Below, piece after piece: positions 9,326-23,894 of a DNA stretch of 64,000 nt (its first letter is position 1; each line of letters starts with the position of its first letter). The position numbers and the translations under genes are program-made. The stretch is from Falsiroseomonas frigidaquae (GTDB lineage: Bacteria > Pseudomonadota > Alphaproteobacteria > Acetobacterales > Acetobacteraceae). The stretch spans positions 558,001-622,000 of the forward strand of contig NZ_JAAVTX010000004.1 in the NCBI RefSeq assembly GCF_012163145.1, given 5' to 3'. Below the pieces are notes generated by a model. That model was not told where the DNA came from. It ran no database searches and saw nothing but the letters and a program-made list of their open reading frames with translations.

Positions 9326-10321
9326 ATGCTGCGCCGCCTTTTCGCCTCCAGTGTCCTGGCCACATCGGCCCTCGCACTCGGGCTGTTCGCCGGCCAGCCG
9401 CGCACCGCCGCGGCCCAGGAATGCCCGCGCGGCACGCTCGATGCCCGCTACTGCGACCGCGACGGTGACCTGGTAGCCGACGCGCCAACCGCGGCGCGGG
9501 AGCAGGTGGACCCCTCCACGCTGATCTTCGCCTATACCCCGGTGGAAGACCCCGCGGTCTACCGCACCGTCTGGCAGCCCTTCATGGACCACCTGGCGCG
9601 CGAGACCGGCAAGCGGGTGCAGTTCTTCTCCGTGCAGTCCAACGCCGCGCAGATCGAGGCGATGCGCGCCGGCCGCCTGCACATCGCCGGCTTCAACACC
9701 GGATCGAACCCGCTCGCCGTGAACTGCGCCGGCTTCGTGCCCTTCGCCATGATGGCGAGCAACAACGGCGCCTTCGGCTATGAGATGGAGATCATCGTCC
9801 CCGCCTCCTCCGACGCGCAGCGCATCGAGGATCTGCGGGGCCGCACCATCGCCTTCACCTCCGAGACCTCCAACTCCGGCTTCAAGGCGCCGTCCGCCCT
9901 GCTGGCCAGCGAGTTCAACATGCGCGCCGGCCGCGACTTCACCGCCGCCTTCTCCGGCCGCCACGACAATTCCATTCTCGGCGTCGCCAACCGCGACTAT
10001 GATGCGGCGGCCATCGCCAATTCCGTGCTGACCCGCATGGTGGCGCGCAACGTCGTGCGGATGGACCAGATCCGCAACATCTACCGCAGCCAGTCCTTCC
10101 CGACGACCGGCTATGGCCACGCGCATAACCTGGCGCCGGCGCTGGCGGAGAAGATCCGCGCCGCCTTCTTCAACTTCAACTGGAGCGGCACCGCGCTGGC
10201 GACCGAATTCGGCAAGAGCGAGCCGCCGGCGGAGAAGTTCATCCCGATCACCTACCGCGAGCATTGGAACGTGGTGCGGCAGATCGATGCGGCGATGGAC
10301 GTCTCCTACGCCTGCCGCTGA
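9326..10321 (+). CDS. phnD: Phosphonate/phosphite-type ABC transporter substrate-binding protein
   Basis: 331 residues with a signal peptide ending around RTAAAQE. The mature part has the PhnD/type-2 periplasmic-binding-protein pattern: [40 protein letters not shown], then [20 protein letters not shown]. It binds a phosphonate, phosphite or similar oxyanion in the periplasm and hands it to PhnE. The start is preceded by GGGAG. It heads a four-gene operon (phnD-phnC-phnE-phnE). No C-P lyase or other phosphonate-degrading genes are nearby, so the exact ligand is open. Confidence 0.88.
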
Positions 10322-10334
10322 GGATCATCACACC

Positions 10335-11135
10335 GTGCTGCTGTCGATCGAAGGGCTGACCAAGCGCTACCCGACCGGTGACCTCGCACTCGACAAGGTC
10401 GATCTGCAGGTTCCGGCGGGCCAGGTGATGGCGCTGATCGGCCCTTCGGGCGCCGGCAAATCCACGCTGATCCGCTGCGTCAACCGGCTGGTGGAACCCT
10501 CCGCCGGCCGGGTGATGCTGGACGGGGTGAACCTCACCGCACTCGGCTCCGGCGCGCTGCGCCGGGCGCGGCGACGGATGGGCATGATCTTCCAGGAATA
10601 CGCGCTGGTCGAACGCCTGACGGTGATGGAGAACGTGCTGTCCGGCCGGCTCGGCTATGTCGGCTTCTGGGCGTCCTGGTTCCGCCGCTTTCCGCGCAAG
10701 GATGTCGAGGAAGCTTTTCGACTTCTGGACCGCGTGGGGCTGGCGCATATGGCGGACAAGCGCGCCGATGCCCTGTCCGGCGGCCAGCGCCAGCGCGTCG
10801 GCATCGTGCGCGCGCTGATGCAGGACCCGAAGCTGCTGCTGGTGGACGAACCCACCGCCAGCCTCGATCCCAAGACCAGCCGGCAGATCATGCGGCTGAT
10901 CGTGGAGCTCTGCGCCGAACGCGGCCTCGCCGCCATCATCAACATCCATGACGTGGCGCTGGCACAGCAATTCGCGCGCCGCATCGTGGGGCTGCGCGCC
11001 GGCCGTATAGTCTTCGACGGCCCGGCCGAGGATCTGCGGGCCGAGGGCCTGACCGACATCTATGGCGAGGAGGATTGGTCGCAGACCATCCGCAAGGCCG
11101 AGGAGGAGGACGAGGCAGCCGAGGTCTTGGCATGA
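10335..11135 (+). CDS. phnC: Phosphonate-type ABC transporter ATP-binding protein
   Basis: 266 residues from a GTG start 13 nt after the phnD stop. An upstream in-frame ATG would run deep into phnD and is rejected. Walker A is GPSGAGKST, the Q-loop region is [10 protein letters not shown], the signature is [10 protein letters not shown] and Walker B is [12 protein letters not shown]. The order and size match PhnC, the cytoplasmic ATPase of PhnCDE importers. The stop overlaps the first phnE start by 4 bp (ATGA). Confidence 0.9.
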
Positions 11136-11950
11136 GCGCCACGCATTTCGACGCCGCTGCCGCCGCCCGCGCCTGGCGCCCGCCGCCGCTGATCGAGACG
11201 CCCTGGCTGCGCTACGCCGTCTATCTCGGTGCGCTGGCCTATGCGCTGGTCGCCTTCTCCACCATCGAGGTGAACTGGACCCGCGCGGCGGAAGGCGTGG
11301 AACGCGCGGGGCGTTTCCTCAGCGGCTTCTTTCCGCCGGACTTCGTCACCAAGGGCGACGACATCCTGGCCGGGCTGCTGGAGAGCCTGACCATGACGGT
11401 GGTCTCCACCGGCATCGGCATCATCCTGTCCATCCCGGTGGCGCTGGGGGCGTCGCGCAACCTGGCGCCGCTGCCGGTCTACCTGTTCTGCCGCGGCATC
11501 ATCGCCATCAGCCGCACCTTCCAGGAAATCATCATCGCCATCGTCTTCGTCGCCATGGTGGGCTTCGGTCCGCTGGCCGGCACGCTGACGCTGGCCTTCG
11601 CCACCATCGGCTTCATGGCGAAGCTGATCGCGGAGGATATCGAGGATATCCAGGCGAGCCAGGCGGAGGCGGTGCGCGCCACCGGATCATCCTGGTTCCA
11701 GCTGCTGGCCTGGGGCGTGCTGCCCCAGGTGCGGCCGCGCCTGATCGGGCTTTCGGCCTACCGCCTCGACATCAATTTCCGGGAGAGTGCGGTGCTCGGC
11801 CTGGTGGGTGCCGGCGGCATCGGCGACACGCTGAACACCAGCTTCGACCGCTACGAATTCGACACCGCCGCGGCGGTGCTGATCGTCATCATCGTCATCG
11901 TGCTGGCCTGCGAATACGCCAGCGGGTACATCCGCCGGCAGGTGCAGTAA
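11132..11950 (+). CDS. phnE: Phosphonate-type ABC transporter permease, first copy
   Basis: 272 residues with about six membrane helices. The coupling-helix (EAA) segment reads [20 protein letters not shown] and is followed by [20 protein letters not shown], the usual PhnE C-terminal signature. It starts inside the phnC stop and shares its own stop with the next start (TAATG). Paired PhnE permeases occur in several PhnCDE operons and probably form the heterodimeric channel. Confidence 0.9.
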
Positions 11951-12768
11951 TGGCCATCCTGACCCGCGCGGACGGCACGCCGGATTGGCGCCGGCGCACG
12001 CCGAAGGCGGATCTGCTGGTCTGGGCCGGCTGGTTCGGCGCCGTGGCGCTGACCGTGGCCTGCTTCCAGTTCATCTCCGACCGCACCATCTGGCCCTTCG
12101 TCTGGGATGCGCCGGCGCAGGGCGCGGACCTGATCGGCCGCATGTTCCCGCCGCGCTGGTCCTATGCCAGCCAGTTGTGGAAGCCGCTGCTGGACACCAT
12201 CAACATGGCGACCATAGGAACGGCGCTGGCCATCGTCATCGGCGTGCCGCTGGCCTTCCTCGCCGCGCACAACACCACGCCGAGCCGGCTGGTGGTGCGG
12301 CCGGTGGTGCTGTTCATCATCGTCGCCAGCCGGTCCATCAACTCGCTGATCTGGGCGTTGATCCTGGTGATCATCCTCGGGCCCGGCATCCTCGCCGGCA
12401 TCATGGCGATCGCGCTGCGCAGCGTCGGCTTCATCGCCAAGCTGCTGTATGAGGCGATCGAGGAGATCGATGCGACGCAGGTCGAAGCCGTGACCGCCAC
12501 CGGCGCCTCCCGCCCCCAGGTGCTGGGCTGGGCCATCGTGCCGCAGGTGATGCCCGCCTTCGCCGGCATCAGCGTGTTCCGCTGGGACATCAACATCCGG
12601 GAGGCGACGGTGCTCGGCCTGGTGGGCGCGGGCGGCATCGGCATGCAGATGCAGGCCAGCATCAACGTGCTGGCCTGGCCGCAGGTGACGACGATCTTCG
12701 TGCTGATCCTCGGCACCGTGCTGGTCAGCGAATGGCTGTCCGCAAGGGTGCGGCACGCGGTGATCTAG
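11950..12768 (+). CDS. phnE: Phosphonate-type ABC transporter permease, second copy
   Basis: 272 residues, the same length as the preceding permease. It has an N-terminal helix (LLVWAGWFGAVALTVACFQF), the EAA segment ATQVEAVTATGASRPQVLGW, and [20 protein letters not shown]. The start was chosen at the TAATG junction; the in-frame upstream extension would overlap all of the first permease. It ends the importer operon and converges directly on the enolase-superfamily gene, whose stop begins at the next base. Confidence 0.9.
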   Translation: MAILTRADGTPDWRRRTPKADLLVWAGWFGAVALTVACFQFISDRTIWPFVWDAPAQGADLIGRMFPPRWSYASQLWKPLLDTINMATIGTALAIVIGVPLAFLAAHNTTPSRLVVRPVVLFIIVASRSINSLIWALILVIILGPGILAGIMAIALRSVGFIAKLLYEAIEEIDATQVEAVTATGASRPQVLGWAIVPQVMPAFAGISVFRWDINIREATVLGLVGAGGIGMQMQASINVLAWPQVTTIFVLILGTVLVSEWLSARVRHAVI

Positions 12769-14664: not shown

Positions 14665-15378
14665 TCATCCCGTCAGCCAGCGCGGCGGGCGGCGCAGCAG
14701 GTTCGGCGCAAGGCCGGTCTGGGATTCGCGGCTGCGCGTCGCCACCGGGTCATCCCACCGGCCCCATTGCACCACCAAGTTGCGCCGGGCGCTGGCGGAG
14801 CGGTTGGGCGCGCCGCCATGCAGCACCCGCGGATGGATCAGCACCATCGCCCCCCTGCGGCAGCGCGGCACCACCTCCGGCCGCCCCGGGCCGCGATGCG
14901 AGCCGGGGCGGAAGCCGGTGCCGCCATTGCCGGGGTGCATGCCATCCAGGCACAGCATGGCGCGCAGGAAGCGGCTGCGCCGGGTCGGCATGTATCGGTT
15001 GGCGGCATCCCGGTGCCAGGCGATGCCGCTGCCGAAGCGCGCGGCCTTCATGGTGACATTGGCGAAATGCAGCACCAGCCGCCGCGTGCCCAGCGCCCGC
15101 GCCACCGCCGCCAGGACGCGCGGATGCGCCGCGGCGGCGGCGAAGGCGGGATGCAGGCGGGTGGGCTCGCCCAGGATGAAGGGCGCGTCCTGGCCCGGCG
15201 GCAGCGGCGCGCCGCGCTGGGCCTCCCGCACGCCCGACTCCATCACGCAGCGCGCGGCTTCGGCCGCGCTCAGCCGGCGTCGTGCCAGCCGGCCGAGCAG
15301 CGCGCGCAGCCGGTCCTGCAAGGCGGCCGGCGGGCCGGGCAGGATGGCAAAGCCGCCCCGCGCCAGCGACGGGCGCAT
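14665..15378 (-). CDS. Phytanoyl-CoA dioxygenase (PhyH) family Fe(II)/2-oxoglutarate oxygenase
   Basis: 237 residues. The 2-His-1-carboxylate iron site is visible as WHRD (His122, Asp124) and RVLHGG (His187), with a following Arg cluster that could bind 2-oxoglutarate. PGNGGTGFRPGSH matches the family beta-strand region. It is the last gene of a coupled four-gene operon downstream of the Fur-type box at 19709; its ATG shares one base with the HemS-like stop. The substrate is unknown. Its position suggests it modifies an iron carrier, or a compound imported by the adjacent transporter (inference). Confidence 0.75.
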   Translation of the reverse strand: MRPSLARGGFAILPGPPAALQDRLRALLGRLARRRLSAAEAARCVMESGVREAQRGAPLPPGQDAPFILGEPTRLHPAFAAAAAHPRVLAAVARALGTRRLVLHFANVTMKAARFGSGIAWHRDAANRYMPTRRSRFLRAMLCLDGMHPGNGGTGFRPGSHRGPGRPEVVPRCRRGAMVLIHPRVLHGGAPNRSASARRNLVVQWGRWDDPVATRSRESQTGLAPNLLRRPPRWLTG

Positions 15379-16100
15379 CAGCCGAAGCCGGCCAGCGCCG
15401 CCTCCGCCGCCGCATCCAGCGGGCGCAGCACCAGGCCGGTCTCGGCGCCTGCCGCATCCAGCGCCGCCAGCCCGGCCTCCCCGCGCCGGAAACCGCTGAC
15501 GGAGCCGCCGCGCAGATGCAGGTGGAAATCGGGGCGGATGATGTTGGCGTAGCCCATCATGCCCCTCACCTCCTCCACCGCGCCGCGCCAGGCCTGGCTG
15601 GCGCCGGCCTCCTGGAAGCGTATCTCCACCTGGCCGCCGCTGGCGCGCAGCGCCTCCAGCGCCGCAGTGCCGGCATCGGCCTCGGGCGGCTGTTCGGTGG
15701 GGGGCAGGTCCGGGCGCGGCGGTGTCTCAAGCTCCGCGCCGACATGGCCGCGCACGGCGGCGTCGTACTGCTCCGGCCCATCCATCGCGGTGACGGACAT
15801 CAAGGTCGCATCCGCCGCGTCCTTGAACTCGAAGCGCGGATAGGATTTGCCGCGCATCACGCTGCTGCGGTCGCCCACCACGCGCACCACGCGGTCCAGC
15901 GCCAGTTCCGAATCATGCAGCGGCCCCTGGATGCGCAAGGTATCGCCGGTGCAGGTCGCGGCTTCGATCACGCCGATGCGTTCATGCGTGGTGCCACCGC
16001 CGCTGATGCCCACCATGGCGCGACCGATGGCGGGCAGCAGGGCCGCGACCTCGGCCGGGGTGGCATCCAGCAGAAAGCGTCGCGGCAGGGTCTCGGTCAT
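15378..16100 (-). CDS. Hypothetical protein with HemS/ChuX-like features
   Basis: 240 residues. No exact family was recognised, but the layout resembles a shortened HemS/ChuS heme-trafficking protein. MVGISGGGTTHERIGVIEAA resembles the HemS stretch around V-M-A-L-T-R-N-x-x-C-V-H-E. A D-L-R-like strand, RFEFKDAADATLMSV and DFHLHLR resemble HemS FDADG and DPDFNLHLR segments. It lies in an operon (4-bp overlap with the fused ABC gene, 1-bp with PhyH) next to a heme-type TonB receptor. Heme handling is therefore a reasonable inference; the similarity is by eye and distant. Confidence 0.5.
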   Translation of the reverse strand: MTETLPRRFLLDATPAEVAALLPAIGRAMVGISGGGTTHERIGVIEAATCTGDTLRIQGPLHDSELALDRVVRVVGDRSSVMRGKSYPRFEFKDAADATLMSVTAMDGPEQYDAAVRGHVGAELETPPRPDLPPTEQPPEADAGTAALEALRASGGQVEIRFQEAGASQAWRGAVEEVRGMMGYANIIRPDFHLHLRGGSVSGFRRGEAGLAALDAAGAETGLVLRPLDAAAEAALAGFG

Positions 16101-18607
16101 GCGGGGATCTCCTTCAGGACTGTGCGGCGGGGCAGCGCGCGGAAGCCGGCGATGCGGCCAGCCTCCAGGCGCAATTCGTCATCGGCGAGCGCCGCGACCA
16201 CGCGCGGGTCGTGGGTGACCAGCAGGCAGGCGAAGCCGCGCGCGGCCTGCAGCCGGGCGATCAGGGCCAGCACCTCCGCCTCCACGCTGCGATCCAGCGC
16301 CGAGGTCGGCTCATCCAGCACCAGCACATCCGGCCCGGCGATCAGCGCGCGGGCGATGGCGACGCGCTGGCGCTGGCCGCCGGAGAGTGCGGCGGGGCGG
16401 CGGGTGACGAACGCCGGGTCCAGCCCCACCTCCTCCAGCGCCGCCCGCACCCGTTCGGCGCGCAGCCGGGGCGAGAGGTTGGGCAGGTGCAGGATCAGCG
16501 GCTCCGCCAGGATGGCGCCGAGGGTCAGGCGCGGGGACAGGCTGCCGGCGGGGTTCTGGAACACCACCTGCACGCGGCGGCGCCAGGCGCGGCCGGGCGG
16601 TAGCGGGCGGCCATCCAGCAGCACTTCCCCTTCCGCCGGCAGCAGCCGCAGCAGCGCCAGCGCCAGGGATGTCTTGCCGCAACCGGAGGGGCCGACCACC
16701 GCCAGCGTCCGCCCGGGCTGCAGGGTCAGGTCCACCCCCTCCAGCACCTGCGTGGTGCCATGGCGCAGGCCGAGGCCGCGCGCCGCCAGCACGGGGCGGC
16801 CGGGGGGCGGCGGATTGCGCGGCGGCGGGGGCAGCGGGTGCAGCAGGCGGCGCAGCGCCGGCTCCCGCGCCCGGTCCAGCCCGGCCATCGGCAGCTCGGC
16901 CAGGATGCGCCCCTGGTCCATCACCGCGATGCGGTCGGCCACGGCGCGGGCCGCATCCACATCATGCGTGATCAGCAGCAGCGCCATGCCGAAGCGCCGG
17001 CGCAGCCCATCCAGCAGTTCCAGCAGCGAGCCGCGCAAGGCGGCATCCAGCGAGGCGGTGGGCTCATCCGCGATCAGCAGCAGCGGGTTGCGGGCGATCG
17101 CCATGGCGATGACGGCACGCTGCAACTGCCCGCCGGAGAACTGGTGCGGCAAGGCGCGCGGCCGCAGCACCGGCTGCGGCAGGCCGACCAGGCGCAGCAG
17201 CTCCGCCGCGCGCGCCTCGGCCGCGGCGGCGCCGAGGCCCGCGGTGGCCGCAGCCTCCACCACCTGGCGCAGCACCGGGTGCAGCGGGTTGAAGGCGGCG
17301 CCGGTTTCCTGGAAGACCAGCCCGATGCGATCGCGCAGCGCGGCGCGGCGCGCGGCTTCGGGTGCGCCCAGCAGCTGCTCGCCGGCCAGGCGGATGCTGC
17401 CGGACAGGCGGCTGGCCTGCGGCGGCAGCAGCCCGGCGATGGCCAGGCCCGTGACGGTCTTGCCCGAGCCTGATTCGCCCAGCAGCGCCACCGCCTGCCC
17501 GGCCTCGATCGTCAGATCCACGCCGCGCAGGGCGCGGGTGGCGCCGAAATCCAGCTCCAGCCCACGCACCTCCAGCAGCGCGTCGCCGGCGGGGGCGGGG
17601 CGCGGCTGCAGCAGGCGGCGGGCGGGGGCCAGGCGCGGGTCCATCGCATCCCGCAGATGCTGGCCGACCAGCGTCACCAGCAGCAGCAGGCCGCCCAGCG
17701 TGCCGACCGCCGCCGCCGCCAGCCAGGGCGCGTGCAGGTTGTTGCGCGCCTGCGCCAGCAGCTCGCCCAGCGAGGGCGTGCCCGGCGGCATGCCGAGCCC
17801 GAGCAGGTCCAGCCCCGCCAGCATGGTCATGGCGCCGGCCGCCAGGAAGGGCGCGACGGAGAGGGTGGGCGCCAGGGCATTGGGCAGGATGTGGTGGAAG
17901 ATGATGCGCGGCGGCGGCGCCCCCATGGCCACGGCCGCGCGCACGAAATCCTGCCCGCGCAGGCGCAGGAACTCCGCCCGGGTCAGCCCGGCGATGCCCA
18001 TCCACAGGAACAGCGACAGCACGCCGGCCAGCACCCACAGATTGGGCGCGATGGCGCTGGCCACCATCATCAGCAGGAACAGCAGCGGCACGCCGCCCCA
18101 GATCTCGGTCAGGCGCTGCAGCAGCAGGTCGGTGGCGCCGGCGAAATAGCCCTGGATGGCGCCGAGGGTGAGGCCCAGGGCCAGGCTCAGCAGCGTGACG
18201 ATGGCGGCGAAGCCGAGCGACAGGCGCAGCCCCCAGACCAGCCGTGCCAGCACGTCGCGGGACTGGTCATCGGTGCCCAGCCAATGCTGGGCGGAGGGCG
18301 GCGCGGGGGCGGCCTGCGGCACGCCGGGTGCGACCGTATCCGGCGCGAAGCGGATCGGCGGCCAGATCTGCCAGGCGCCGCGCACGGCGAGCAGCGCCTG
18401 CACGGCGGGGTCGTGGAAATCGGCCGGGATCGGCAGCACGCCACCCAGCGCCCGTTCCGTCGGCCGCGCCAGGGCGGGGGAGGAGACGGCGCCGTCCAGC
18501 AGCAGCAGCAACGGCCGGTCATTGGCGATGAATTCCGCCGGCAGCACCAGCAGCACCACCAGCGCCAGCAGCCGGACCGGCCAGGCGCGTCTAGTTGCGG
18601 CGGCCAT
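16097..18607 (-). CDS. Yej-type ABC transporter: permease (YejE-like) fused to tandem ATPase domains (YejF-like)
   Basis: 836 residues from ATG 18607. A longer start at 18637 is possible, but this one aligns with YejE N-termini (EFIANDRPLL). Residues about 1-335 are the permease: HWLGTDDQSRDVLARLVWG, then the coupling segment VRAAVAMGAPPPRIIFHHIL. Two ATPase domains follow: Walker A GESGSGKTV and GPSGCGKTS, signatures SGGQLQRA and LSGGQRQRV, Walker [12 protein letters not shown] and LVLDEPTSALD. In Yej systems permease E and ATPase F are normally separate proteins. It overlaps the YejB-like permease by 17 bp and the HemS-like gene by 4 bp. Confidence 0.88.
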   Translation of the reverse strand: MAAATRRAWPVRLLALVVLLVLPAEFIANDRPLLLLLDGAVSSPALARPTERALGGVLPIPADFHDPAVQALLAVRGAWQIWPPIRFAPDTVAPGVPQAAPAPPSAQHWLGTDDQSRDVLARLVWGLRLSLGFAAIVTLLSLALGLTLGAIQGYFAGATDLLLQRLTEIWGGVPLLFLLMMVASAIAPNLWVLAGVLSLFLWMGIAGLTRAEFLRLRGQDFVRAAVAMGAPPPRIIFHHILPNALAPTLSVAPFLAAGAMTMLAGLDLLGLGMPPGTPSLGELLAQARNNLHAPWLAAAAVGTLGGLLLLVTLVGQHLRDAMDPRLAPARRLLQPRPAPAGDALLEVRGLELDFGATRALRGVDLTIEAGQAVALLGESGSGKTVTGLAIAGLLPPQASRLSGSIRLAGEQLLGAPEAARRAALRDRIGLVFQETGAAFNPLHPVLRQVVEAAATAGLGAAAAEARAAELLRLVGLPQPVLRPRALPHQFSGGQLQRAVIAMAIARNPLLLIADEPTASLDAALRGSLLELLDGLRRRFGMALLLITHDVDAARAVADRIAVMDQGRILAELPMAGLDRAREPALRRLLHPLPPPPRNPPPPGRPVLAARGLGLRHGTTQVLEGVDLTLQPGRTLAVVGPSGCGKTSLALALLRLLPAEGEVLLDGRPLPPGRAWRRRVQVVFQNPAGSLSPRLTLGAILAEPLILHLPNLSPRLRAERVRAALEEVGLDPAFVTRRPAALSGGQRQRVAIARALIAGPDVLVLDEPTSALDRSVEAEVLALIARLQAARGFACLLVTHDPRVVAALADDELRLEAGRIAGFRALPRRTVLKEIPA

Positions 18608-19679
18608 CGAAGCCGATCCGCGGGTCGATCGCGACATAAAGCAGGTCCGAGGCCAGATGCATCAGCAGGCCGAGCAGCGTGAACAGCCAGAGCGTGCCGA
18701 AGATCACGGGGAAATCACGCGACAGCGCCGCATCGATGCCGAGCAGGCCGAGACCCTGCAGTCCGAACAGCGCCTCGATCATCACCGCGCCGCTCGACAG
18801 CTCCATCAGCAGGGCCGCGGGCAGGCCGGCAGCGACGACCAGCATGGCGTTGCGGAAGACATGGCCGAAGAGCACGCGGCGCGGCGCCAGCCCCTTGGCC
18901 TGGGCCAGCAGGACATAGGTCTTGCCCAGCTCCTCCAGGAACAGGTTGCGCGTCATCAGCGCGAGGGAGGAGAAGCCGGCAATGACCATGGCGGCCACGG
19001 GCAGCACCAGGTGCCACAGCCAGTCCAGCAGCAGGCGCGGCCAGGAAAAGCTGGCGGCATCGGCGGAAAGCAGGCCGCCGGCGGGGAACCACTGCCAGAA
19101 GCGCCCGCCGGCGAAGACCACCAGCAGCACCACGGCGATGACCATGCCCGGCAGCGCATGGGCCGCCACGGTCAGCGCGGTGGCGGCCCGGTCGAAGCGG
19201 CTGCCGCGGCGCACCGCCAGCGCGATTCCGAGCGGCACGGCGATGAGATAGGTGAGCAGCATGGACCAGGCGCCGAGCGAGGCGGTGACGGGCAGCCTCT
19301 CCCACAGCAGCTGCGCCACCGGGCGGTCGAGGAACAGCGAACGGCCGAGGTCGAAGGTGACCAGCCTTTGCAGCAGCAGCCAGAAGCGTTCCAGCGGCGG
19401 CTTGTCGAAGCCGAATTGCCGCTCGATCTCGGCCACCAGGCGCGGGTCCATGCCCTCGCTGCCGCGGTAACGCAGCGCCGGGTCCAGCGGCTCCTCCACC
19501 GCCTGGGCGCCGAGCACGCGTTCCGCCGCATCCTGCACATCGCCGGACAGCGTCGCGATCATGTGCTCCACCGGGCCGCCGGGGGCGAGTTGCGCCACCG
19601 CGAAGTTCAGCGCGACGATGGCGAGCAGCGTCGGCGGCAGCAGCAGCAGGCGACGGAGGATGTAGCGGTGCAGAAGCAT
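18591..19679 (-). CDS. yejB: Yej-type ABC transporter permease (YejB-like)
   Basis: 362 residues. The N-terminus has RYILRRLLLLPPTLLAIVAL followed by FAVAQLAPGGPVEHM, and a YejB-type insertion before the core (ERQFGFDKPPLERFW). The later coupling segment YVLLAQAKGLAPRRVLFGHV precedes a final DLLYVAIDPRIGF. Six helices are expected. It is the first gene of a coupled operon (permease, permease-ATPase, HemS-like, PhyH). The Fur-type box at 19709-19727 lies 30 bp upstream of its start, so iron repression is likely. Confidence 0.88.
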   Translation of the reverse strand: MLLHRYILRRLLLLPPTLLAIVALNFAVAQLAPGGPVEHMIATLSGDVQDAAERVLGAQAVEEPLDPALRYRGSEGMDPRLVAEIERQFGFDKPPLERFWLLLQRLVTFDLGRSLFLDRPVAQLLWERLPVTASLGAWSMLLTYLIAVPLGIALAVRRGSRFDRAATALTVAAHALPGMVIAVVLLVVFAGGRFWQWFPAGGLLSADAASFSWPRLLLDWLWHLVLPVAAMVIAGFSSLALMTRNLFLEELGKTYVLLAQAKGLAPRRVLFGHVFRNAMLVVAAGLPAALLMELSSGAVMIEALFGLQGLGLLGIDAALSRDFPVIFGTLWLFTLLGLLMHLASDLLYVAIDPRIGFDGRRN

Positions 19680-19708
19680 CTTGCCCTTGGGCGGCGTTGG
19701 CTCTGATA

Positions 19709-19727
19709 TATGCGAATGACTCGCATT
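19709..19727. promoter_or_regulatory. Fur-type box between divergent yejB-like and yejA-like genes
   Basis: TATGCGAATGACTCGCATT is a 9-1-9 inverted repeat with two mismatched pairs and matches the perfect palindrome upstream of the TonB receptor (23876-23894) at 16 of 19 positions on one strand. The box overlaps the start codon of the yejA-like gene and lies 30 bp upstream of the yejB-like gene, so one site could control both directions. It resembles the classical Fur consensus (AATGANAATCATTNTCATT). Binding by Fur is inferred. Confidence 0.7.
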
Positions 19728-21518
19728 TGCATATACGCCCTATCCACCCTGCCGTTTCTTTTCAGCCCGGCGGGCGCGCAACCCGCCCGCACGGATGCGA
19801 TCGCGGCGCATGGCCCCCCTGCCCTGCCGCCCGGCTTCGCGCATTTTCCGCATGTGAACCCGGCGGCGCCCAAGGGCTGCACCATCCGCATGGTGCAGCC
19901 CGGCACCTTCGACACGCTGAACCCCTTCACGCTCCGTGGCCGCATGGTGATGGGGGTGTGGAGTTGGGTGCATGACTCGCTGCTGATGGAGAGCCCGGAC
20001 GAGCCGCAGGCCGCCTATGGCCATCTTGCGGAGCGCTTCGAGATCGACGCGGCGGCGCGCGTGGTGCGCTTCACACTGCGGCCGGAGGCGCGCTTCAGCG
20101 ATGGCACGCCGGTGACGGCGGAGGATGTGGTCTTCACCGCGCAGATCCTGGGCAACGAAGGTCGGCCGCATCTGCGCGCGCTGTTCGAACATGCCGACCC
20201 GGTGGCGGAGTCCCCGCATGTGGTGCGCTTCCGCCTGCCGGAGGGCGACCCGGCGCGCGCCGTGCTGCGGCTCGGCACCGTGCAGATCCTGCCGCGGCAT
20301 GACTGGCAGGGGCGGGAATTCGGCGCGCTGACGATGGACCTGCCACTCGGCAGCGGCCCCTATCGCGTGACGGAGGTGGAGCCCGGCCGCCGCGTGGTGT
20401 TCGAGCGCAACCGCGACTGGTGGGCCCGCGACCTGCCCACGGCGCGCGGCCGCTGGAATTTCGACCGCATCGAGATGACCTATCACCGCGACCGCATCGC
20501 CGCCTTCGAATCGCTGCTGGCCGGCCGCGCCGACTGGATGGTGGAAGGCGACACGCGCCGCTGGGCGGTGGGCTACGACACGCCGGCGGTGCGCGAGGGG
20601 CGCACCCGCCGCGTCGAGCAGCCGCAATTCTTCACCACCGGCATGAACGGCTTCGCCTTCAACCTGCGCCGCGCCCGCTTCGCCGATGTGCGGGTGCGGG
20701 AGGCGCTGACCCTGCTGCTGGATTTCGAATGGGCCAATGCCGCGCTGTTCCACAACAGCTACCGCCGCACCGCGAGCTTCTTCGAGAATTCCGACCTGGC
20801 CGCGACGGCGGCGCCGGATGCGGCGGAGCGTGCGCTGATGGCGAATTTTTCCGCGTTGTTCCCAGCCGAGGCATTCGAGCGCGCTTGGCAGCCGCCCGTC
20901 AGCGATGGCAGCGGCCGCGACCGCGCCATGCTGGAACGCGCGCTGGCGTTGCTCGACGCCGCCGGCTGGGCACCGCGGGAGGATGATGGCCGCCTGGTGC
21001 ACAAGCAGACCGGCGAGGCCTTCACCCTGTCCGTCCTGGCGCAGAGCAACGCGCAGCAGCCGCTGATCACCGTCTGGTTCCGCGCGCTGCGGCGCATCGG
21101 CATCGCGCCGCGCTTCGAGATCCTGGACGCCTCCACCTTCGCGCAGCGCACCCGCGCGCGGGATTTCGACCTGGCCTTCCGCTTCACCATCCCGCCCGAC
21201 TGGCCGGGTGCGGAACAGCGCAACCTCTGGTCCTCCGCCACCGCGGACCGGCCGGGCAGCGGCAACCTCAGCGGCGTGGCGGACCCGGCGCTGGATGCGC
21301 TGCTGGACCGGCTGGTGGCGGCGCCGGACCGCGCCACCATGCAGACCACGGCGCGGGTGCTGGACCGGGCGCTGCAATGGCAATGGCTGGTGGTGCCGTC
21401 CTACTACAATCCGGTCCGGCGCCTGGCGGTCTCCGCCCGCTTCACCGCGCCGCCCCGGCCGCCGCGCCATGGCTATGGCGACGACGCCTGGTGGTGCCGC
21501 GAGGCCGCGGCACCATGA
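19710..21518 (+). CDS. yejA: Yej-type ABC transporter extracellular solute-binding protein (YejA-like)
   Basis: 602 residues. A short signal peptide (MRMTRICIYALSTLPFLFSP then AGA) precedes the SBP family-5 fold. YejA-like stretches are FPHVNPAAPKGCTIRM, GTFDTLNPFTLRG, SDGTPVTAEDVVFT, LGSGPYRVTEVEPGR and GRWNFDRIEMTYH. An in-frame TGA at 19704-19706 limits the start to 19710 or 19716, both inside the Fur-type box. E. coli YejABEF imports microcin C and peptides; given the neighbours here, an iron or heme-peptide ligand is inferred. It converges on the TonB receptor gene with 9 bp between. Confidence 0.88.
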   Translation: MRMTRICIYALSTLPFLFSPAGAQPARTDAIAAHGPPALPPGFAHFPHVNPAAPKGCTIRMVQPGTFDTLNPFTLRGRMVMGVWSWVHDSLLMESPDEPQAAYGHLAERFEIDAAARVVRFTLRPEARFSDGTPVTAEDVVFTAQILGNEGRPHLRALFEHADPVAESPHVVRFRLPEGDPARAVLRLGTVQILPRHDWQGREFGALTMDLPLGSGPYRVTEVEPGRRVVFERNRDWWARDLPTARGRWNFDRIEMTYHRDRIAAFESLLAGRADWMVEGDTRRWAVGYDTPAVREGRTRRVEQPQFFTTGMNGFAFNLRRARFADVRVREALTLLLDFEWANAALFHNSYRRTASFFENSDLAATAAPDAAERALMANFSALFPAEAFERAWQPPVSDGSGRDRAMLERALALLDAAGWAPREDDGRLVHKQTGEAFTLSVLAQSNAQQPLITVWFRALRRIGIAPRFEILDASTFAQRTRARDFDLAFRFTIPPDWPGAEQRNLWSSATADRPGSGNLSGVADPALDALLDRLVAAPDRATMQTTARVLDRALQWQWLVVPSYYNPVRRLAVSARFTAPPRPPRHGYGDDAWWCREAAAP

Positions 21519-21527
21519 GGCACGGCT

Positions 21528-23840
21528 TCAGAAGGTGATGCGCGCGCCGATCCGGAAATTGCGGCCTGGCGCCACCTGAAGCTCGATCGGGTTCGCCGCC
21601 TTCGTGGCATCGGAGGCGAATTCCGAACGGTTGTAGGTGGTGCCGCCCGGCGACAGCGGCAGGTAGCGCGTATCCAGCAGATTGAAGATGCCGCCATTCA
21701 ACTCGAGATTCGGCAGCGGGCGCCAGGAGGCCAGCAGGTCGAACACCTGGTAGGATTTCGGCATGTAGAGCTGCGAGGAACTCGCCTCCGTCACCTCCGC
21801 GGCATAGGTGCCGTTCAGCGTCACGCTGGTGCGCAGGTCGCGGTTGTCATAGGTGACGCCGGCCGTCGCCGTCAGCGGACGCGCGCCGTCGAAGGCGGTG
21901 CGGGCGGCGCCCGGCGTGGCGCGCTGCGTGCCTTCCTGCCAGGACGCCGCGCCATTCAGCGTCCAGTCCCGCGCGAAGCGCCAGCCGCCGGCGAATTCCA
22001 CGCCCTGCACCGTCACCTCGCTGAGGTTCTGGTAGGTGATGTCGATGGTGCCGGGGATGCTGACGAAGCTCTGGATGAAATCGGTGTAGTCGGCGCGGAA
22101 CACGCCCAGGCTGGCATAGGCGTTGGGAAGCTGCATGCGGATGCCGCCTTCCACGCTCGTCACCTCCTCCGGCCGCAGGCCCGGGTTCGGCACCAGGTTG
22201 AAGGTGGTGCTGGGCAGCGAGGTGTAGAGCTGTTCCGCCGTCGGCTGCTTGAAGCCCTCGCCGTAATTCGCATAGAGCGAGAACACCTCATCCAGCCGCC
22301 AGATGGCGCCTAGGCCGAGCGAGACGTTGCTGTCGTCCTGCACCCGCGGCTCCGCCCCCGCCACCGGCTTGTAGTCGCCATCCGGGCGCGGCGAGATGCG
22401 CGTGGTGGAATAGCGCAGGCCCGGCACCAGGGTCAGCCGCCCGCCGAACAGCGTGATCTCGTCCTGCGCGAAGCCGTCGATGCGGCGGGTATCGGCGTTG
22501 GAGAAGTTGAAGCCCCCTGCCCGGGTCACCGTGCGGACGCCGGTGTTCAGGTTGGTGGCGATATCCTCGCGCTCGTAGTCCGTCTCGGTGGTGCTGGCGG
22601 AGACGCCGTAGGTCAGGACGTGGCGCGTGCCCAGCAGGTTGAAGCTGGAGCCGAGCTGGATCTCGCCCTGCAGCACATTCTCGGAATAGGTCAGCCGGTC
22701 ATAGGTGCTGGTGCGCTGGCCATTGGCCAGCTGGCGCAGGCGCGTGCCGGTACGCTCGATCTCCTGCGGCGAATAGCCGGCCATGACGCGCAGGCTGTCC
22801 AGCCAGCCATATTCCGGGCGCCATTCGGCATCGGTGGAAAACAGGCCGCGCTGGATCGCCTGGCGACGGTGGTAGTCGAGGTTGGTGATGCCGCCGCTGG
22901 CCGGGCCAAGGTCGTAGCGCTGATCCACATCCGTGGCGCGCTGCAGCACATCGGCGGTGACGCGCAGGCGGAAATTCGGCAGCGGGTCCCAGACCACGCG
23001 GGCGAAGTAGTTGTCGGCGGCGACGTCGGTCGGGTTGAACTGGTTGCAGGGCGTGGCGCCGAAGGACAGGTTGCGCGTGCAGTTCCAGATGCCGTCCGGC
23101 GAGCGGGAGTTGTTGCGCGACGGCTCGCTGGCATCGCGGCGCTGGTAGGAGAACATGGCGGAGAATTCGGCCGCCTGTGCGGCGACGGTCAGCCGGCTCT
23201 GCAGGCTGTTGTCCACCGAGCCGAAGCTGGTGCTCGCCTCGCCGCCCCAGGTCTCGCCGGGGCGGATGTAGTCCGAGGGATTGCGGGTGATGTAGTTGAC
23301 CACGCCACCCAGCGCGTCCGAGCCGTAGAGCACGGAGCCGGGGCCGCGCACCACCTCCACCCGGCTGAGATTCCAGGGGTCCACCACGTCGCGCGTGTTG
23401 TCGGTGATGCGTTCGATGGTGCGGAAGCCGTCCACCACCGTCAGCACGCGGTTGCCGCCGACGCCGCGCACCGTGATGCCGCCGAGGCTGGCGAAGGGAT
23501 CCGTGCCGGTTGTCTGGCGGTTCACCGTGATGCCGGGGGTGTAGCGGAACACATCCTCCGCATTGCGCACCATCTGCCGGTCCAGCTCCGCGCCCGGGAT
23601 GACATCGACGGTCGCTGGCGTGTCCATCAGGCGGCGCTCATTGCGCAGGCCGGTGGTGTTGACGGGCGGCAGCAGGGTCAGCGGCGGCAGGCGCACCTCA
23701 TCCCGCGCCGTCACTGGTGCGTCCTGGGCCGGCGAATCCTGGGCCTGGGCGGGGACGGCGGAGAGGATGGCGGCGGAGGCGAGCAGGAGCGCTCGCCAGC
23801 GCCATGGATGCGGGCGGGAGACATGTGGCGTGCGCGACAT
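21528..23840 (-). CDS. TonB-dependent outer-membrane receptor, heme/hemoglobin type
   Basis: 770 residues from ATG 23840 (GAGGGGG upstream; signal peptide ending ILSAVPAQAQ). The plug domain shows DTPATVDVIPGAELDRQ, VRGVGGNRVLTVVDG and RVEVVRGPGSVLYGSDALGG. The barrel ends in a typical terminal strand with Phe (FRIGARITF). A heme-receptor-like segment is present: GEGFKQPTAEQLYTS followed by NPGLRPEEV, resembling the FRAP and NPNL motifs. It would import heme or a siderophore with TonB energy. The Fur-type palindrome 36 bp upstream of the ATG indicates iron repression. Confidence 0.85.
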   Translation of the reverse strand: MSRTPHVSRPHPWRWRALLLASAAILSAVPAQAQDSPAQDAPVTARDEVRLPPLTLLPPVNTTGLRNERRLMDTPATVDVIPGAELDRQMVRNAEDVFRYTPGITVNRQTTGTDPFASLGGITVRGVGGNRVLTVVDGFRTIERITDNTRDVVDPWNLSRVEVVRGPGSVLYGSDALGGVVNYITRNPSDYIRPGETWGGEASTSFGSVDNSLQSRLTVAAQAAEFSAMFSYQRRDASEPSRNNSRSPDGIWNCTRNLSFGATPCNQFNPTDVAADNYFARVVWDPLPNFRLRVTADVLQRATDVDQRYDLGPASGGITNLDYHRRQAIQRGLFSTDAEWRPEYGWLDSLRVMAGYSPQEIERTGTRLRQLANGQRTSTYDRLTYSENVLQGEIQLGSSFNLLGTRHVLTYGVSASTTETDYEREDIATNLNTGVRTVTRAGGFNFSNADTRRIDGFAQDEITLFGGRLTLVPGLRYSTTRISPRPDGDYKPVAGAEPRVQDDSNVSLGLGAIWRLDEVFSLYANYGEGFKQPTAEQLYTSLPSTTFNLVPNPGLRPEEVTSVEGGIRMQLPNAYASLGVFRADYTDFIQSFVSIPGTIDITYQNLSEVTVQGVEFAGGWRFARDWTLNGAASWQEGTQRATPGAARTAFDGARPLTATAGVTYDNRDLRTSVTLNGTYAAEVTEASSSQLYMPKSYQVFDLLASWRPLPNLELNGGIFNLLDTRYLPLSPGGTTYNRSEFASDATKAANPIELQVAPGRNFRIGARITF

Positions 23841-23875
23841 TTGCGGTAACCCCCTCGTGAGTGGGAGCTCATGCA

Positions 23876-23894
23876 AATGCGAATCATTCGCATT
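23876..23894. promoter_or_regulatory. Fur-type box upstream of the TonB receptor gene
   Basis: AATGCGAATCATTCGCATT is a perfect 9-1-9 palindrome and very close to the classical Fur consensus AATGANAATCATTNTCATT. On the minus strand it continues as TTGCAT, and the same extension follows the box at 19709-19727, so about 22 of 23 positions agree between the two sites. It lies 36 bp upstream of the receptor ATG, a position suited to repression. Confidence 0.8.

Follow-up and report, generated by a model that had tools for sequence, protein, structure and literature searches.

Closest described systems

The YejABEF system imports peptides and microcin C. The structure of Escherichia coli YejA contains a bound undecapeptide, and the natural cargo of Yej importers is described as poorly known (PMC10924461). 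YejABEF and BacA are unrelated importers with at least one common peptide cargo, phazolicin, and the binding protein MbnE binds methanobactin, a copper-peptide (PMC10128002). BacA-type transporters also carry cobalamin (PMC12003926). Among iron-related systems, the receptor PhuR has a His-Tyr heme motif (PMC12670364), Dpp-type heme routes are reported from Haemophilus and Mycobacterium (PMC2738685, PMC6751184), and the Fus ferredoxin system has the inner-membrane transporter FusD (PMC6793856). The Fur-regulated TonB receptor CciT depends strictly on CciO, an Fe(II) dioxygenase of the cytoplasm (PMC12004947).

The locus presented here is part of the window, the whole 64,000-nucleotide stretch of DNA that was analysed. 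Dpp-type heme import, Fus, MbnE and PiuA-PiuC each have parts in common with it. It resembles PhuR/ShuA with HmuRSTUV in its heme-family TonB receptor, its HemS-type protein and, in this genome, the same palindrome, but differs in that the importer is of the peptide type, there is no FecCD-type permease in the cluster, the HemS-like protein is compact and the receptor ligands are replaced. Homologs of YejA, YejB, YejE and YejF relate it to YejABEF; in contrast to that system, YejE and YejF are fused, YejA is divergent, the set is boxed and linked to a receptor gene and a HemS-like gene, and scores lie below the NCBI cut-offs for YejB, YejE and YejF.

Plasmid loci of an SbmA/BacA type carry a related receptor and HemS-like protein, but have an unrelated peptide transporter and ChaN instead of PhyH, and the palindrome was not found in them. 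Among the literature matches listed, the available text contains no functional description of this plasmid locus type. Methanobactin uptake (MbnT/MbnE) has a YejA-family binding protein in common with the locus and also uses a TonB receptor; to our knowledge, however, it serves copper and not iron and includes no HemS-like protein. The pairs CciT-CciO, PiuA-PiuC and Fiu-YbiX likewise combine a Fur-controlled TonB receptor (Fur control being putative here) with an Fe(II) dioxygenase, but the present locus has its own importer, and PhyH is missing in some of its loci. The oxygenase is of the PhyH type by Pfam and presumably not of the PiuC type seen in the CciT-CciO group, a separation made by family name. 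As in Dpp/HbpA heme import, the importer is of the peptide-type ABC kind, with heme as the presumed cargo here; the locus differs in its YejA-type binding protein and in the clustering of the receptor gene with the HemS-like gene.

Literature on Yej or BacA together with heme, siderophore, iron or Fur contains, in the available text of the matches listed, no such locus. The combination of a heme-family receptor, a peptide importer and a HemS-like protein appears new in that no description of it was found in these sources.

Gene organization of the locus

The features of the locus, in window coordinates, are:

14665..15378, minus strand, PhyH-type Fe(II)/2-oxoglutarate oxygenase, accessory (Pfam PhyH, 70.4 bits)
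15378..16100, minus strand, compact two-half HemS/ChuX-like protein (Pfam HemS, E 4.7e-5, just below the cut-off)
16097..18637, minus strand, YejE-type permease fused to a YejF-type double ATPase (NCBI YejF and YejE models)
18591..19679, minus strand, YejB-type permease (YejB model, 386.7 bits, cut-off 445)
19709..19727, unstranded, Fur-type palindrome at the divergent start of YejA and YejB, overlapping the YejA start codon
19710..21518, plus strand, YejA-type solute-binding protein (SBP_bac_5, 205.6 bits)
21528..23840, minus strand, heme/hemoglobin-family TonB receptor, its frame open as far as 23876 (TIGR01786, 346.4 bits)
23876..23894, unstranded, Fur-type palindrome, a perfect match, 35 nt ahead of the likely start of the receptor

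The six genes at 14665-23894, their coordinates and their coupling are all as an earlier note on this DNA had described them. The YejB and YejEF genes overlap by 47 nt, YejEF and the HemS-like gene by 4 nt with a common ATGA, and the HemS-like and PhyH genes by one base within TGATG. YejA is divergent from YejB, with 30 nt between the two start codons, and convergent (tail to tail) with the receptor gene. Judged from the sequence, the receptor is likely to start at the ATG at 23840 rather than at the TTG at 23876. Elsewhere in the window, at 9326-12756, there are genes for a phosphonate-type ABC transporter (named by eye), and similar genes are found near the cluster in genome G362.

The fused YejE-F protein consists of a BPD_transp_1 permease and two ABC ATPases (Pfam/NCBIfam). 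With 386.7 bits against a cut-off of 445 for YejB, 291 against 439 for YejE and 378 against 834 for YejF, these parts are taken as clear homologs only. The genome carries a second YejB (51%). The best PDB match of YejA is MbnE (7e-126), and chains named YejA match at 1e-106 to 2e-105.

The HemS-like protein

The earlier note had made its reading depend in part on HemS/ChuX similarity being detectable by profile search, and such similarity is present. The window protein scores 23.7 bits against Pfam HemS (PF05171; cut-off 24, E 4.7e-5), the match falling in its C-terminal part, and the copy in genome G260 scores 24.1 bits. Scores of 54, 38.8 and 39.4 bits were obtained for three orthologs, from Paracoccus, Devosia and Pannonibacter, and those of Paracoccus and Devosia display two HemS stretches each. 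Two PDB chains of heme/hemoglobin transport, which we take to be ChuS, match the same part of the window protein with E values of 6e-4 and 1e-3. Alignment to canonical HmuS by hhalign gave 97.6% (11 rows; this comparison took 8 of 11 loci, the other three lying outside the motif filter), with residues 11-229 of 240 aligned to HmuS columns 52-328, which comprise both HemS halves. The value rises to 98.4% with 16 rows.

The DTHDF segment of HmuS is opposite a gap in the HemS-like protein, and the N-terminal leader is also skipped. The histidine of this segment is presumably the axial site His-209 of PhuS. The HemS-like protein is thus without the putative axial-histidine segment, which counts against the explanation favoured below. 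Residues F192, H193, L194 and H195 are invariant in 11 Acetobacteraceae copies and also in 11 mixed rows.

Conservation in the order

The HemS-like gene is found in 12 of 396 genomes of the order. A gene-neighbourhood survey, proposed in the earlier note, shows that the set is conserved as a unit: receptor, YejA, YejB, YejEF and HemS-like gene occur together in nine of the 12 carriers, the window included. The carriers were found via the HemS-like gene, and its presence in all nine Yej loci is by selection; Yej loci devoid of it would escape a search whose probe is this gene and not the receptor. Three carriers were not counted as clusters: G362 and G226, whose loci are cut by contig ends, and G066. 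The latter has a HemS-like remnant only (L029:8954-9175), with a Fur-type box 2.9 kb off, and 19 kb of its sequence gave none of the remaining genes of the set. Flanking genes could be compared for three genera, g1, g8 and g10, and they differ from one to the next; in g1, G118 also differs from the other genomes. A pattern scan of genome contigs yielded two loci, which by length and position are on the same contigs as those of G362 and G143.

The HRD motif of PhyH is present in all eight aligned copies and the distal HGG in seven. In the window's genus, as in G074, the PhyH gene has the HemS-like gene as its neighbour; in genus g8 its neighbour is YejA. PhyH is accessory, since it was not found in G355 and G260, where the clusters are otherwise complete; it was not found in 10.7 kb of G226 either. 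The PhyH frame of G074 (L021:8728-9147) lacks the distal conserved region and is possibly damaged.

When the class was searched with the HemS-like profile, 20 of 385 genomes besides the window's own gave matches, only at positions 121-227, and these frames of 276-533 amino acids are interpreted as canonical HmuS. In the phylum, two others came up among 398 genomes, both partial. The plasmid copies came from a tblastn search, so the spread of compact copies can hardly be judged from the profile searches.

Loci with BacA-type transporters

When 385 genomes of the class were searched with the receptor profile, four strong orthologs came up outside the order, at 745-803 bits. The next-best matches are at 378 bits or less, and three of these are beside HmuS. 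In all four orthologous loci the gene that follows the receptor encodes an SbmA/BacA-type transporter fused to an ATPase. One of them, G733, has a ChaN gene 3' of this transporter and a TauD-family oxygenase gene before the receptor (L082:5260-6339), the latter possibly a parallel to PhyH. These four loci (G555, G652, G427 and G733), out of nine of the BacA type, gave no convincing HemS-like gene in the roughly 20 kb around the receptor, so the pairing of receptor and HemS-like protein is not universal.

Five plasmid records, from Paracoccus, Devosia, Pannonibacter and Rhizobium, carry the HemS-like gene (tblastn), and in all five the order is receptor, SbmA/BacA-type ABC transporter, HemS-like gene and ChaN. 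In the Rhizobium record the annotation splits the HemS-like gene in two. Pannonibacter phragmitetus 31801 has two copies of the set on its plasmid p.p-1, one on either side of the record start (L105:1659-7231, L090:5626-11198). The Pannonibacter loci are followed by genes for an AraC regulator and for another TonB receptor (L090:12341-16786, L092:15476-19921, L105:7236-10007), and two of the three copies also have an MFS transporter and an FAD monooxygenase downstream, an arrangement that resembles siderophore uptake.

In a tree of 24 receptors, the nine BacA-linked and nine Yej-linked rows are together on a 100/100 branch, the Yej-linked rows form one sub-group (100/100) and the HmuS-linked receptors fall outside; the tree is rooted at its midpoint, and importer exchange may have gone either way. 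A single receptor family thus works with two peptide importers that are unrelated to each other.

The TonB receptor

The window receptor scores 346.4 bits against TIGR01786, over the cut-off of 323.75, and 314.9 bits against TIGR01785, just below the cut-off of 316.85. Its best PDB match is PhuR (3e-56). With B12 receptor models the score is 97.1 bits, far below the cut-off of 599.7.

We take the motif residues of PhuR to be a His of the plug and a Tyr of a loop. All 18 receptors of the Yej/BacA-linked group are without this plug His, and none has Tyr or His at the loop position, where 16 have Phe. HmuR of the same genome has His at both positions. Heme would therefore not be bound by this receptor group as it is in PhuR/ShuA, which counts against the favoured explanation. 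The loss of ligands was considered as proof against heme, and this was rejected as too strong; three HmuS-linked receptors are also without the plug His, yet keep the loop Tyr, and the ligand test is for that reason suggestive only.

Fur-type palindromes

The receptor-side palindrome at 23876-23894 reads AATGCGAATCATTCGCATT and that on the YejA/YejB side, at 19709-19727, reads TATGCGAATGACTCGCATT. The two are near-identical, as had been pointed out, but the second does not lie strictly between yejA and yejB: it covers the start codon at 19710. Both are taken as putative Fur sites.

A scan of the whole genome (6.08 Mb) with the pattern AATGCGAATSAYTCGCATT, allowing up to three mismatches, yielded seven distinct places, and the reversed control none. 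Two of the seven are inside the locus, where random placing of seven would give 0.011 per 9.2 kb (P for at least two, 5e-5, calculated after the sites were known). The palindrome is also found before hemP-hmuRSTUV, before a ChaN gene and before the gene of a siderophore-interacting protein (SIP, a reductase), and one is between hemC and a nitroreductase gene. These places support the presence of an iron-type gene set, and Fur binding and an iron response of the locus are predicted from them. One palindrome (contig C17, L004:1501-1519, two mismatches) has no recognised iron gene adjoining.

Boxes with at least 15 of 19 positions matching are at the YejA/YejB start in seven of the nine Yej loci, window included, and before the receptor in five of seven loci for which that stretch was fetched; G355 and G260 have 14/19. 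The four BacA-linked loci outside the order display a palindrome-like site (15-16/19) before the receptor. The palindrome was not found in the five plasmid loci, where the best site within 400 nt is 11/19, and this counts against the favoured explanation. Beside the cluster of G118, genes for HmuQ (143.9 bits, cut-off 130) and ChaN diverge from a 15/19 Fur-type box (L023:7816-9065).

Coexistence with the hmu operon

It had been suggested in the earlier note that a peptide-type importer replaces HmuTUV. The genome contains, however, a complete and boxed hemP-hmuRSTUV operon: hemP (64.5 bits), hmuR (518.9 bits to TIGR01785), hmuS with two HemS stretches, hmuU of the FecCD type, and both hmuT and hmuV. 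Judged by strong HemS-domain matches of the canonical kind, every carrier of the HemS-like gene but G226 also has HmuS (11 of 12), as compared with 47 of 396 genomes overall (hypergeometric 2e-10, kinship ignored), and within the genus in 4/4 carriers as compared with 5/12 sampled members (p 0.01). HmuTUV itself was checked in the window's genome and the carriers were checked for HmuS. On these grounds the replacement of HmuTUV was rejected. The locus adds to classical heme uptake and is an added, different route beside Hmu, not a substitute.

HmuQ was sought in the window's genome and gave no match, a further point against the favoured explanation. The match to heme oxygenase in this genome is at 26.3 bits (cut-off 23).

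Proposed function and alternatives

Gene content, conservation, boxes, family relations and the two kinds of importer per receptor family are directly visible in the sequences compared. The gene set is real and conserved and probably constitutes an iron-regulated import system, and its link to heme is well supported by the company the genes keep. Part of the earlier interpretation stands, with its shared palindrome, heme-family receptor, HemS/ChuX-like protein, peptide-type importer and conserved unit; the replacement of HmuTUV does not. The explanation we favour, with a little less than even confidence, is that the locus represents a Fur-repressed, added heme-type uptake route for a heme-like cargo accepted by peptide importers.

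Cargo, direction and order of steps are inferred to be the following. The receptor, with TonB, would carry heme, or an iron compound resembling it, across the outer membrane. In the periplasm YejA would bind this cargo, and YejB with the fused YejE-F would pump it across the inner membrane, where the HemS-like protein would act as receiver in the cytoplasm; PhyH, where present, may process the cargo or its ligand. A cargo acceptable to peptide importers, perhaps peptide-bound or peptide-joined heme, would bypass HmuTUV. Such a route would tie peptide importers, about whose natural cargo little is known, to iron nutrition, and would point to a heme-like iron source beyond the classical heme pathway. 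The exchangeable inner-membrane transporter offers a direct test of the cargo of Yej and BacA-type importers.

A narrower proposal, which we consider rather unlikely, is an importer dedicated to heme that has kept its link to a peptide, such as the heme c peptides that degraded cytochromes leave behind. This peptide would supply an axial ligand, which would explain a receptor without the usual ligands, and would be a handle for the importers, which would explain the use of both Yej and BacA for one receptor family. The route would be used beside HmuRSTUV, which takes free heme.

The main rival to the favoured heme-type route is the import of a peptide siderophore or another non-heme iron peptide by a receptor that has drifted from the heme family. 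The ferric peptide would enter through YejABEF; freeing the iron or modifying the ligand, in a CciO-like manner, would fall to the HemS-like protein and PhyH. The absence of the usual heme ligands from the receptor, the occurrence of peptide importers in both the Yej and the BacA locus types, and MbnE, the binder of the copper-peptide methanobactin, as best PDB match of YejA all agree with this, as do the SIP gene in the same boxed set and the Pannonibacter neighbours (a TonB receptor; an MFS transporter and FAD monooxygenase in two of three copies). CciT-CciO is a precedent for a TonB receptor that needs an Fe(II) dioxygenase (PMC12004947). The four receptor loci without a HemS-like gene shift weight towards this alternative and away from the heme route, and so does the constancy of the HemS-like gene in Yej loci, which is partly due to selection. 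The siderophore is nevertheless on the whole somewhat unlikely, in view of the HemS-like gene in nine Yej loci (found through it) and five plasmid records, ChaN in the plasmid loci and in G733, HmuQ beside the cluster of one carrier, and the co-occurrence with HmuS.

Similarity to HemS and a heme-family receptor would also suit the import of another tetrapyrrole or of a corrinoid (cobalamin, other metal porphyrins or bilins) that fits the HemS-type fold. We know of no corrinoid import by Yej, however, the palindrome is common to iron genes, and the receptor has 97.1 bits with B12 models against a cut-off of 599.7. Import of this kind is improbable, even though BacA-type transporters carry cobalamin (PMC12003926).

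Finally, an ordinary free-heme importer redundant with Hmu, in which YejA would act as DppA or HbpA do elsewhere, is very improbable in spite of the Dpp-type heme routes in Haemophilus and Mycobacterium (PMC2738685, PMC6751184), as the receptor is without the usual heme ligands (though three HmuS-linked receptors are also without the plug His) and the presence of Hmu in nearly all carriers would leave such an importer idle.
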